From: Epilithonimonas arachidiradicis
Lineage (GTDB): Bacteria > Bacteroidota > Bacteroidia > Flavobacteriales > Weeksellaceae
Length of the DNA: 64,000 nt
Assembly (NCBI RefSeq): GCF_003610695.1
Contig: NZ_RAQH01000002.1
Coordinates: forward strand, 248,001 to 312,000
Direction: 5' to 3'
This document shows positions 2,400 to 57,220 of the stretch, one piece after another. Within the stretch, counting starts at the first letter, position 1. The number at the start of each line of letters is the position of its first letter. The notes below the pieces were generated by a model. It was not told the origin of the DNA, searched no databases, and saw nothing but the letters and a program-made list of their open reading frames with translations. A program made the position numbers and the translations under genes.

Positions 2400-5168
2400 T
2401 TATTTTTTAATGAATTTTTGAGTGGATTTTTCTCCTTTTTTATTCACCAGTTCAATCACATAATTACCAGTAGGCAGTTGGTTAACATCGATCTTGTTTT
2501 CGATAGATTTTCCGTTCGCTACAGATTGACCTGCTACATTATAGATTTTGTACGTTGATTCTCCGGTTTCCTTTGCTTTGATATTAATTACATCTTTCAC
2601 AGGATTAGGATAAATCATAGTCTGGTTAAAAGAGTTGACATCAGAAACAGCTAACACGTCTTGGATATCAATAGAATAATCTTCTACCTGTCCATAAGTG
2701 ATTGTGGAACAGGAAGTTGGTGTCTGGTTGTACGCGGCCTGAACTCTTACTCTAACTCTACCTGTTGCTGCGGTGGCAGGAATTGTAAATGTTCCGGTAA
2801 CTGTTGCTGCAGAAGATGCTGTAGTCTGTGACCAAGCAGTTTCTCCTGCATCCGTAAACACGCCATTGTTGTTATAGTCTATATACAATCTATATCTTAG
2901 CGGATAAACAGTTCCAGACCAAAATGGTGTAATGGTTATTGTATAAGTACTTCCTTTAGTAACATCAGTCGACAAATAAGAAAAGTCTTCATAGCCTGTG
3001 CTTCCTGTACTTGCATTATCAATTGTATTAAGTTTCACGTTTTGTATTTTCATAAAGCTTGTATTAGAAGCCTGCGAAGTACAATAAATATTGCCTGTGG
3101 CCAATGTAGTAACTGGAACTGTGTTGCTGAAGGCGGATTTGTTACCAGCTTCATCTTTAGCCTCAACCTTGAAATTATAGGTTGTAGATGCTGATAATCC
3201 TGTAACATAGTACGATGTTTTATATGTTGTTCCCAGCAAGACGTTGTCTTTATAAACATTATAGCCGTCTAATGCAAAATTATCCGTAGAGGCATCCCAA
3301 GTCAAATAAGTAGAAACATTCGTAGTAGAAGTAGCGGCTAGATTGAGTGGGGTAGTAGGTACCGTTGTATCTGGTCCGTTTGGATTATATTTTGCACCTA
3401 AGCCAACAGCGTAGAAAGCATCCTGAGTCGCTATTGCTTCAGCTGAACCCGCTCCGTATAGTTCTGTTGCGGCCTGGATACCGAAATCTCTTGCATTCAT
3501 GTAAGTGGAATTGGGAGATAAGAAAGCTGTTTCCAGACGATAAACAATTTTAGATGCTTTTTCAAATCCGATTCCTGTTACACTGTATGATTTTCCAATG
3601 TCATTGGTTCCCGTTTTTCCTTGCACTAATACATAATACCAGTGGTTAAGAACACCACTGTTTGTGTGGACACCACAATAGTCGTTGGTATCTTGTCCTG
3701 GAGTAGCACAGCCTTCTGCAACTGTTGCCGGTTGCCAGTTGATACCTTTATATGTGTCTGGCTGCCCTGCAGATTTAGGATTGCTCATCGACCTTAAATA
3801 ATAAGGTGCATATAAGGTAATATCTTCACCAATGGTGAAAGCTTGTTTGTTAGGGAGATAAGTTTCTTCTACTACTGCTCCCCAAATATCAGAAAGACCT
3901 TCGTTCATGGCTCCGGATTCTCTTTGGTATGCCAGGGCTGCGGATGCAGAACAGACGCCGTGACCCAATTCGTGAGCCGTAACGTCAAATGCTGTCAAAA
4001 CATTGAAATTGCTTGTTCTGTCACCATCGCCATAAAGCATATAAGAACCAGACCAATAAGCATTATTGATATTACTTCCATAATGCACATAGCTTCTCAG
4101 AAGTGAACCATTGTTGTCATAACTATTCCTGTTATGAACATTTTTAAAATAATCATAAGTTTTTTCTACGCCAAAATGGGCATCCAAAGCAGCATTATCC
4201 CAAGTAGAATTGTCAAATTCCGTAGCAGTCCAATCATTATCTGCGTCTGTGAAATCCACAGCACCTGCAATCGCTGTACTTTTTTTTGCATTATAGGTTC
4301 TTACGCCACTACCTCTTGTAGTATCATACAAGATATAATTAGTTCCTGCGGTATTCAGAGAGGTTTCAATAGATTGTGTTCCACTGTAACGCGTAGCAGC
4401 GTTGCCAGTTGCCAGTTTTGAAATAGTATTTTTAAGTTCAGAATCCTTAACTTCAGAAACGATTTTGTCAGTATCGAGTTCGTTTTTTAAAACATTATGC
4501 TTGCTTCCGTTAGCGTGCTTGATGATCGCATCTGATAATAAAATCTGACCGTTTGTTGCATCTACATAGATATAAGCTCTACTCATTGGCTGTGAAGCGA
4601 AAACATCAAATTTATAAGCTAGAGCCAGTTTGTAACTTTCGTCTACCTGTTGTAGTGGAAGCAAAACCAATTCTCCAGCTGGCTTTTTATAATTATCTAC
4701 ATTGCTCTCCGCATCATCCCACATATATTTCTGCGCTCCAACATTTTGAATTGCTCTGTCTAATGCAGATTGTGAAGATATTTTTGGTGAAATACTGACA
4801 TTCTTCGTGTCGAAAATCTCACCATTCATACTTATAAGATTTCCGTTTTTGTAATGCAGATTGTAATTTCCAAATTCAACTTTGACGTTGTTGTAGTATA
4901 ATTGATATTTTTCATCCAGAAAGCTGCCTTTAGCATCTTTCTCCGATTTAGCAAGTCTAAGTTCTGTACCAGCAGGAAGCTGTAAAATCTCTTTAAATAA
5001 ATCAGTTTTTGAAGCCGATTTTAAGTTTGCGTCACTCTTAAATGTGACTAAACTAATATTCCTGTTTTTTTCGGTAATTTTCTTGTCAATGTATTCCTGT
5101 GCATTGGCGGATAGGGTGAATCCAAAAACACTACACAAAATACCAATTCGTAAAAGCTCTTTCTTCAT
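2400..5168 (-). CDS. Secreted M4-family (thermolysin-like) metalloprotease with FnIII, GEVED and T9SS sorting domains
   Basis: This is a 922-residue preproprotein. It has a signal peptide (residues about 1-23, ending ANAQ), an FTP-type propeptide (about 30-215), and the peptidase domain with HELGH at 399-403. E423 in NEGLSD is the third zinc ligand, 20 residues after the second His exactly as in thermolysin. A later CGVHTNSGVLNHW segment carries the expected active-site His. A fibronectin III domain follows (about 610-695), then a GEVED domain (IDYNNNGVFTDAGE) and a C-terminal Por sorting tail beginning IYPNPVKDVINIKA. Such proteins cross the outer membrane by the T9SS and act outside the cell; porU and porV for that route are at 29.6-34.7 kb. 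It appears monocistronic. Confidence 0.95.
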   Translation of the reverse strand: MKKELLRIGILCSVFGFTLSANAQEYIDKKITEKNRNISLVTFKSDANLKSASKTDLFKEILQLPAGTELRLAKSEKDAKGSFLDEKYQLYYNNVKVEFGNYNLHYKNGNLISMNGEIFDTKNVSISPKISSQSALDRAIQNVGAQKYMWDDAESNVDNYKKPAGELVLLPLQQVDESYKLALAYKFDVFASQPMSRAYIYVDATNGQILLSDAIIKHANGSKHNVLKNELDTDKIVSEVKDSELKNTISKLATGNAATRYSGTQSIETSLNTAGTNYILYDTTRGSGVRTYNAKKSTAIAGAVDFTDADNDWTATEFDNSTWDNAALDAHFGVEKTYDYFKNVHNRNSYDNNGSLLRSYVHYGSNINNAYWSGSYMLYGDGDRTSNFNVLTAFDVTAHELGHGVCSASAALAYQRESGAMNEGLSDIWGAVVEETYLPNKQAFTIGEDITLYAPYYLRSMSNPKSAGQPDTYKGINWQPATVAEGCATPGQDTNDYCGVHTNSGVLNHWYYVLVQGKTGTNDIGKSYSVTGIGFEKASKIVYRLETAFLSPNSTYMNARDFGIQAATELYGAGSAEAIATQDAFYAVGLGAKYNPNGPDTTVPTTPLNLAATSTTNVSTYLTWDASTDNFALDGYNVYKDNVLLGTTYKTSYYVTGLSASTTYNFKVEAKDEAGNKSAFSNTVPVTTLATGNIYCTSQASNTSFMKIQNVKLNTIDNASTGSTGYEDFSYLSTDVTKGSTYTITITPFWSGTVYPLRYRLYIDYNNNGVFTDAGETAWSQTTASSAATVTGTFTIPATAATGRVRVRVQAAYNQTPTSCSTITYGQVEDYSIDIQDVLAVSDVNSFNQTMIYPNPVKDVINIKAKETGESTYKIYNVAGQSVANGKSIENKIDVNQLPTGNYVIELVNKKGEKSTQKFIKK

Positions 5169-53136: not shown

Positions 53137-53733
53137 TCATATCAACCTTCTTGTTCTAATCAAATAATCCAGATACTTTTCCCCATGTTGTCTATAAAGA
53201 AATTCCTCTTCCAGTCTTATCTGAATCTGAATCAATACATAACCCAGAATCAAAAACAATAGAGAAACCGCATTTGGTGTAAGAAAGAAAAGACCGACCA
53301 AACTTACAACCATTCCAAAGAAAATAGGATTTCTGGAAATCGAAAATAATCCGGAAGTTACCAATTCAGTTTTCATATCGTTATCAATCCCGATTCTCCA
53401 AGAATTTTTCATTTGATTCTGAGCAACAATCGTCCAAATCAAAGCTAATAACATGAATATCAATCCAACGAATTTTAGGAACTCGACATCAAGAAAATCA
53501 ATAGAAAGAAAAGAACTTTCCGACAAAAACGGAAACAAAATAACATAAACGAAAATCCCAACCAGACAAAGTTTGAAATAATTGCCGACCAACGCATAAG
53601 CACTTTCGTCCTGAGGCAAAACCAAAGGGTTTTTCCTGATTTTTCTGGCAACAATAATCGTTTTCGCAACAAAAGAAATCCCGAAAAACAAAATAAAATA
53701 AGCGGGTAAAAAGATTTTGATCAATAATTCCAT
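53137..53733 (-). CDS. Isoprenylcysteine carboxyl methyltransferase-like membrane protein
   Basis: This 198-residue integral membrane protein has about five helices and the ICMT/PEMT core near its C-terminus. The core reads TELVTSGLFSISRNPIFFGMVVSLVGLFFL, in which RNP is the cofactor-proximal motif, then EEEFLYRQHGEKYLDYLIRTRRLI. Such proteins methylate small or lipid substrates with S-adenosylmethionine; the substrate here is unknown. The open frame extends 35 codons upstream across the intergenic region; ATG 53733 begins the first membrane helix. Confidence 0.85.
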   Translation of the reverse strand: MELLIKIFLPAYFILFFGISFVAKTIIVARKIRKNPLVLPQDESAYALVGNYFKLCLVGIFVYVILFPFLSESSFLSIDFLDVEFLKFVGLIFMLLALIWTIVAQNQMKNSWRIGIDNDMKTELVTSGLFSISRNPIFFGMVVSLVGLFFLTPNAVSLLFLILGYVLIQIQIRLEEEFLYRQHGEKYLDYLIRTRRLI

Positions 53734-53776
53734 AGCTAATTTTTTCTGCGAAATTACAGCTGTGGAAAGTGCAATA

Positions 53777-54199
53777 CTATTGCAAAGTTTCGTCGAGACA
53801 GTTTTCGCAAATCCCTTTCGCAAAAAACCGCACTTCATCTATTCGGAAACCGAGATTCGGGTGGTCTGCAAACGTCACATTCTCTTTGCAGGTCGTCTGT
53901 TTGCAGATTTTGCAGTAGAAATGCAGATGTCTGTCGCTGTGTGTATTCTCGTTGCAATCGTCCTCGCAAAGCCGATATTTTGTCGTGCTATTTTCCTGGA
54001 TGCTGTGAACAATTCCTTTCTCCTCAAATGTTTTCAGCGTTCTGTAGATTGTAATTCTATCAGCATTTTCAAACTGATTTTCAATCTCCGACAAAGACAA
54101 AGCCACATTCTGAGAATCCAAAAAATCATACACCAAAATCCGCATACTCGTCGGTTTGGTATTCTTGTTCATCAGTTTATTTTCAATCTCATTTTTCAT
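53777..54199 (-). CDS. Fur-family transcriptional regulator
   Basis: This protein of about 140 residues has the Fur winged helix (MRILVYDFLDSQNVALSLSEIENQFENADRITIYRTLKTFEEKGIVHSI). The dimer and metal part includes SDRHLHFYCKICKQTTC and GICENC, two Cys-x2-Cys pairs that form the structural zinc site. Starts are possible at 54211, 54199 and 54172. The longer open frame to 54298 runs through a GC-rich repeat and is rejected. Whether it senses iron, zinc or peroxide cannot be told. It is preceded by the GC-rich element at 54217-54308 and by ligA on the same strand. Confidence 0.88.
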   Translation of the reverse strand: MKNEIENKLMNKNTKPTSMRILVYDFLDSQNVALSLSEIENQFENADRITIYRTLKTFEEKGIVHSIQENSTTKYRLCEDDCNENTHSDRHLHFYCKICKQTTCKENVTFADHPNLGFRIDEVRFFAKGICENCLDETLQ

Positions 54200-54216
54200 C
54201 AGAAAACTCATTTTTA

Positions 54217-54308
54217 GGAGCCGGGAACCTGCTTTCCGTTGCAATTCCTCGCTCGGTCGGCTTCGCTCCGCCGCCTCACTGCGGGATTTCCACTGCAATC
54301 AGGGCTAG
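54217..54308 (-). repeat. GC-rich structured intergenic element (possible RNA or dispersed repeat)
   Basis: This block of about 92 bp is far richer in G+C than its surroundings. On the minus strand it opens with TAGCCCTGATTGCAGTGGAA and closes with AACGGAAAGCAGGTTCCCGG then CTCC. It holds two related motifs (ATTGCAGTGGAAA and ATTGCAACGGAAA, 11 of 13 identical), terminal AGCC/GGCT complementarity, and inner hairpins (CGGC-loop-GCCG; GGAA-loop-TTCC). The pattern resembles repeats I have seen repeatedly in flavobacterial intergenic DNA. It is not a tRNA, and no plausible protein is coded. Confidence 0.6.
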
Positions 54309-54376
54309 GAGATTCGACATTCAATCAACGTTTCTCATAACTCAAACGCTTGTACTCTCAAACCCTCCAACTCAAA

Positions 54377-57220
<2,844 letters not shown>

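Follow-up and report, generated by a model that had tools for sequence, protein, structure and literature searches.

The spacer between ligA and a Fur-family regulator gene in Epilithonimonas arachidiradicis raises the question of what a short, GC-rich and seemingly structured block is doing directly upstream of a regulator: whether it is a leader of that gene, a non-coding RNA in its own right, or one copy of a dispersed repeat. The window analyzed here, to which positions refer unless stated otherwise, is a stretch of 64,000 nucleotides of contig NZ_RAQH01000002.1, and a sequence-only reading had placed the block at 54217-54308. Upstream of it lies ligA, encoding NAD-dependent DNA ligase (54377-56458, minus strand; Pfam), and downstream, outside the repeat, lies the Fur-family gene (53777-54199, minus strand; PF01475, Pfam E 7.3e-7), with the block and both genes on the same strand. 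The start codon of the regulator is likely the ATG at 54199, judging from relatives, since three of these lack the ATG at 54211 but possess the next one.

The identity of the block was established with cmscan, which matched 54310-54221 on the minus strand to the Rfam family Flavo-1 (RF01705, model positions 1-76) at 43.6 bits, over a gathering cut-off of 42. With an E-value of 4.6e-6 (the 64-kb window against 4227 families), this was the window's sole Rfam match at that threshold, and a genome-wide list has the copy at the same place (G000:C2:302221-302310). The sequence-only reading had suspected a flavobacterial intergenic repeat, perhaps flavo-1, and was right in this as well as in its placement of the block, which agrees with the match within 2-4 bases. 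Its contrast with AT-rich surroundings also holds, as GC content is 0.59 in the 92-bp bin at 54206-54297 versus 0.33 and 0.39 in the separate bins on either side and 0.33-0.48 in the remaining bins of 53700-54800 outside the block.

The two near-identical internal motifs noticed earlier are both present on the minus strand, ATTGCAGTGGAAA at 54299-54287 and ATTGCAACGGAAA at 54245-54233, where they form the two arms of one imperfect hairpin made of short Watson-Crick steps with purine mismatches between them. The 5' arm containing ATTGCAGTGGAAA spans 54284-54310, as judged from the sequence, the Rfam alignment and an alignment of copies, A1 (row L054), and the 3' arm, with ATTGCAACGGAAA and the outer type GCAGGTTCCCGG, spans 54221-54245. 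Between them, at 54246-54283, lies a variable, GC-rich apical part whose segment type is swapped between copies and species, as seen at the Fur site of three relatives and in 21 orthologous pairs elsewhere. The same GC-rich sequence is found in the loops of copies L037 and L070 as well, and has the look of a nested repeat. The terminal complementarity that had been claimed is likewise found in the sequence, AGCC (54306-54303) pairing with GGCT (54222-54219) in minus-strand reading as an outer stem whose equivalent covaries in one subfamily of copies; GGCT is followed by the end CTCCTAAAA, which reaches 54212 and recurs in alignment A1. The folding energy of the block is ordinary (z of -0.68 as RNA and +0.31 as DNA), and its structural support therefore comes from covariation and copy number rather than from stability.

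Covariation was assessed in subfamilies of copies, whose labels (A, B, C, A', A''), like the interior labels i1-i3 and the site names used below, were coined in this analysis. In subfamily A (23 copies, the window copy included), 96.8% of cells were paired and 11 of 15 pairs had changed on both sides, with a covariation score of 0.685 that was reached by none of 500 shuffles and fell to 0.178 or less when the pairing partner was slid. Subfamily B (25 copies) gave 99.0% of cells paired, 11/24 pairs changed on both sides, and a score of 0.360, again reached by 0/500 shuffles and at most 0.075 with the partner slid. The share of paired cells lay beyond all 500 shuffles in both subfamilies; the count of pairs changed on both sides was ordinary in A (290/500 shuffles as high) and rare in B (3/500), and the number of pair types was ordinary in both (479/500 and 431/500, respectively). 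One mismatch step is also kept, as an A opposite a G in 38/40 copies of A, and in B as A-G in 21/27 and flipped to G-A in 4; these counts exclude 2/42 A copies and 1/28 B copies that fell outside the regular expression.

The outer stem extends beyond the Rfam model. In subfamily B it closes the Rfam core and contains two compensated pairs. Subfamily C has several alternative versions of its outer ends, each complementary between the two sides, which enclose a second foldable stretch (by eye, as in L048 and L052), so that this subfamily probably has a second hairpin beyond the model. Seven copies (L017, L019, L022, L024, L030, L032 and L035) have long loops containing the palindrome ATTGCG...CGCAAT, which looks like a further repeat that sits inside Flavo-1.

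As for abundance, the E. arachidiradicis genome contains at least 61 Flavo-1 matches over the cut-off and at least 103 at E<=1 (from 150 scored candidates out of 1003), the weak ones being partly due to chance, since 5 of 14 control genomes also show weak matches at E<=1, none of them over the cut-off. The sequence-only reading would have given way to a single copy devoid of compensatory changes among homologues and of a transcript; instead, the genome-wide covariance search bears out its expectation of multiple copies, and the scores of A and B that no shuffle reached bear out its expectation of compensatory change. Within the genus, the one-contig genomes G008, G112 and G054 have 102, 115 and 66 matches at E<=1e-4, respectively. 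In a survey of 100 genomes of the family, Flavo-1 was found in 76 at E<=1e-5 and in 71 over the cut-off, and among 296 genomes of the phylum in 38 at E<=1e-6, of which 29 belong to the same order. The gathering score, the hairpin with compensatory changes and the occurrence in Bacteroidetes/Flavobacteria together place the copies in Flavo-1. These counts call for treating Flavo-1 as a dispersed structured repeat, and it follows that a single match beside a gene is no sign that it regulates that gene.

Further analysis covered 89 of the 103 matches, the remainder being C3:62909-62990, the 12 weakest (E of 0.0017 or more) and L081. A search of the genome for half-element patterns, split copies and large inserts revealed no autonomous form, and beyond the listed copies it gave only two lone halves, a 5' half at C9:150380 (1/44 matches) and a 3' half at C6:188648 (1/15). 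A 78-bp gap at L201:7802-7879, seen in several genomes, was considered as a candidate and is not a Flavo-1.

How these copies persist can be judged by comparing stretches of this genome with the 22 other genomes of the genus; 20 of these (G109 and G115 being set aside) show 79.6-92.2% identity to it over a 4-kb segment. When the 30 best of 117 matches in two relatives were taken, 21 had both flanks in common with a copy in E. arachidiradicis, and the sampled copies appear from these shared flanks to be mostly old. By eye, among the aligned genomes, the element occupies site s1 in 10/12, s2 in 12/16 (one copy being degenerate), s3 in 12/16, t2 in 9/9, t3 in 4/5 and t1 in 2/3, and s4 is intact-looking in four of nine genomes, decayed in four and absent from one; these sites are few, and best-scoring or clustered copies are over-represented among them.

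What does change at shared sites is the interior. In 21 orthologous pairs, involving 18 copies of E. arachidiradicis, the interior class differs in 8, and the outer class was kept in six of these and changed in two, as it was in one unexchanged pair; classes were called by regular expression, with one interior and two outer types judged by eye. Site s3 alone displays three interior classes and one outer class over 12 genomes. At exchanged sites, the inner arms and loop have been swapped together, as another matched pair. The 13 unexchanged pairs, in turn, show 95.5% and 88.7% identity in the arms and 81% in the loop, with 68% in the 80 bases upstream and 84% in the 80 bases downstream, which are often coding. 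In E. arachidiradicis itself, 71/89 copies have their nearest loop within their own broad family (32 expected), and exchange would accordingly be mostly within groups; the corresponding figure among fine families is 50/89, and a few loops are nearly identical despite belonging to different families, such as those of L001 (subfamily A) and L020 (subfamily C). No donor copy for an exchanged interior was identified. A different kind of change is seen in L085, where roughly 25 bases are inserted within the 3' arm and are lacking from the orthologue in L176.

Taken together, Flavo-1 in this genus is best read as a high-copy structured repeat; neither an sRNA gene nor a leader that serves the Fur-family gene in particular fits as well. 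More specifically, with a probability of roughly 0.6, it is a REP-like structured repeat that has mostly been retained by vertical descent, with copies that exchange interiors and have at most local effects. The simplest mechanism would be non-reciprocal exchange between dispersed copies, through gene conversion or template switching, which would replace interiors while keeping the copies folded. Any effect would be local, on whichever transcript or DNA site carries a copy: for the window copy, the hairpin would be transcribed in the ligA-fur spacer by read-through from ligA into fur or from a promoter in the spacer, and many other copies sit in reverse orientation directly after a stop codon. 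The window copy is itself ordinary; the interest lies in the family, which Rfam has so far listed as an sRNA family without explanation, and in the exchange of whole interiors between related species at sites they share, an unusual way for repeats to evolve.

It is conceivable, if doubtful, that the repeat goes further and is a distinct class of structured repeat acting as single-stranded DNA rather than an RNA gene, with machinery other than that of RAYTs repeatedly swapping the apical half at fixed positions and leaving the stem base in place, in a kind of stem-guided cassette exchange.

Unlikely is a non-autonomous element moved as single-stranded DNA by an HUH (Y1) transposase, which would make it a genuine RAYT-associated REP, or by some related enzyme. 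Such an element might look like Flavo-1, a hairpin with mismatches in many intergenic copies; its position near stops matches that of some E. coli REPs, according to the accessible text of PMC12306157, and around TnpA-REP genes of subclass 2.6 in Bacteroidetes, atypical structures that also have copies elsewhere are reported in the available portion of PMC6006769. Only one of the 89 copies lies inside a predicted gene, as expected of high-copy intergenic palindromes of the REP kind. At t3, moreover, genome G037 lacks about 134 bp in a near-precise manner, and a gain of the element there is possible because the four genomes that carry it form a clade to which G037 does not belong; on the tree, the pattern fits either a gain in that clade, which includes E. 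arachidiradicis, or a loss in G037. However, no target duplication is visible at this one near-clean empty site, and the sampled sites are mostly shared, as described above.

The element lies on the lagging strand in 94 of the 149 copies listed, out of 283 matches in three genomes (p 0.002 if copies are independent), and this would fit a single-strand process; the bias is weak, since orthologous copies recur between genomes. The three genomes tested singly give p values of 0.02, 0.45 and 0.05, for guessed origins based on 20, 10 and 10 skew windows, and a split test without fixed origins gives p values of about 0.10, 0.05 and 0.10.

The search for the enzyme speaks against mobilization by a Y1 transposase. 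Pfam finds no Y1_Tnp match (PF01797) in the E. arachidiradicis genome, and 59 of 100 genomes of the family have one. Fifty Y1 loci, the 30 best and 20 divergent ones among the matches listed, were scanned within about 1.5 kb with the Rfam Flavo-1 model and with R1, a model built here from a set of copies that includes the window copy. Flavo-1 was on both sides of the Y1 gene in 0/50 and on one side in a single locus, at a distance of about 190 bp, so that a REP associated with a RAYT is not supported by the 50 loci examined or by the PF01797 search of the genome itself, an enzyme outside PF01797 being compatible with these results. The 12 divergent Y1 loci with inspected flanks carry other palindromes (by eye), and L001, used as the one query against plasmid and phage collections, had no match in either.

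Two observations on the Y1 loci themselves deserve mention. Acido-Lenti-1 (RF01687, also of the sRNA type in Rfam) matches at E<=1 within about 300 bp of the Y1 match in 8 of the 30 best loci, on both sides in L271, L273 and L277 and on one side in L257, L267, L274, L276 and L284, with one match at the gathering score, which suggests that Acido-Lenti-1 serves a RAYT as its REP rather than being an sRNA. In addition, the divergent Y1 genes of L327-L333, L335, L337, L338, L341 and L342 form a clade encoding proteins of about 183-203 aa, mostly with the motif YIHQNP, and long palindromes flank the gene in the ten with inspected flanks; the clade resembles subclass 2.6 as far as the available text of PMC6006769 describes it.

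The position of copies relative to genes bears on an explanation that is improbable in its own right, namely that Flavo-1 works in the 3' UTR of the gene located on its 3' side, acting on the strand opposite to that of Rfam to control translation or the mRNA end after the stop. In the sense of the element, the neighbors of the 89 copies are arranged -/- in 33, +/+ in 22, -/+ in 20 and +/- in 14; these counts carry errors because the gene caller missed the Fur-family gene itself. Genes ending against the 3' side have their stop within 25 nt of the element in 24/47 cases, versus 5/36 for those ending against the 5' side (Fisher p 0.0005), and this proximity is most pronounced in subfamily B (15/18). 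By contrast, it holds for just 9/23 copies in subfamily A and 0/6 in C, and 42 of the 89 copies face the start of a gene on that side. Reading the reverse strand would also turn the kept purine mismatches into pyrimidine ones.

Terminators can be weighed along with this explanation. In the four genomes that lack the element at s3, a terminator-like hairpin is found there (by eye), but the occupied genomes carry another such hairpin beside the element as well. The element itself scores as terminator-like in only 3/89 copies in sense and 0/89 in antisense, and an intrinsic terminator was rejected as a candidate. Within 120 bases of the element, terminator-like hairpins occur on the 5' side in 17/89 (sense) and 18/89 (antisense) and on the 3' side in 5 and 8 of 89, respectively; a comparison stretch 700 bases away has them on either strand in 8/89.

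Even less probable is a cis-acting leader that controls the Fur-family gene. The copy ends 12 bases (by its end motif) to 21 bases (by the Rfam boundary) before the likely start codon, and it is kept in all four genomes seen with the ligA-fur order, E. arachidiradicis included. When 80 loci with a Fur orthologue were searched with R1, whose match in the window is by construction since the window copy was in its building set, an adjacent sense match lay upstream of the gene in 3 (L091-L093), the only ones in which ligA was found beside fur. Two further loci (L143 and L148) have a reversed match some 230-440 bases upstream, and 75/80 have no match anywhere, some of them being short upstream (229 bases in L152 and about 1 kb in L147). 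With 3/80 loci, this is no conserved leader or riboregulator that relatives keep ahead of the orthologous gene. The special link to the Fur-family gene suggested by the sequence-only reading is not supported, and the block does not look like a special switch of that gene. The outer ends are the same in all four genomes, as a leader might have it, yet L091 and L092 have the interior type of E. arachidiradicis and L093 has another, and the remaining copies in the genome adjoin many genes in every arrangement. In L092, about 770 extra and apparently coding bases (3095-3868) separate ligA from Flavo-1, and the element still adjoins fur.

Least credible of all is an independent family of trans-acting sRNA genes, in keeping with the Rfam type 'Gene; sRNA', for which strong covariation and the keeping of A.G and G.A mismatches on one strand could speak, and against which stand tens of copies per genome, the lack of a common promoter by eye in the 70 bases upstream, and transcripts without a consistent strand in Flavobacterium psychrophilum, whose Flavo-1 matches seemingly lie sense or antisense to transcribed regions alike, with many in none, in the available text of PMC9723704.

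Flavo-1 as such is a known family, described as an RNA by Weinberg et al. in 2010 and entered in a table of that paper with 'y' for RNA and 'n' for cis-regulatory (PMC2864571, in the portion accessible). The copies studied here are like it in reaching the gathering score, in having the same core hairpin and in occurring in the same phylum. Unlike Flavo-1 as modelled in Rfam, they form a dispersed repeat divided into subfamilies and have an outer stem, a probable second hairpin and interiors exchanged at shared sites. No paper that treats Flavo-1 as a dispersed repeat was found by title and the start of abstracts, in a search that mostly fell outside subscription papers, and some of the properties seen here were not found described in that search.

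With elements of the MITE type, Flavo-1 shares a dispersed, short and non-coding nature and complementary ends; unlike them, it shows no visible target duplication at the one near-clean empty site, has no transposase partner among those sought, and sits at sampled sites that are mostly common to several species. It may also bear some resemblance to the attC sites of integrons, elements with core sites and an associated integron integrase. There is a likeness, too, to the REP/BIME sequences of enterobacteria and their RAYT (TnpA-REP), with which it has in common many intergenic, imperfect palindromes and a tendency to sit just after stops. However, Flavo-1 is longer (core matches of 65-117 bp in E. 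arachidiradicis, plus the ends), has A.G mismatch steps, flanks none of the examined Y1 genes on both sides and occurs here in a genome with no Y1 gene detected. By analogy, the nearest functional parallel may be the E. coli REPs that lie close after stop codons and are reported, in the accessible text of PMC12306157, to lower translation.
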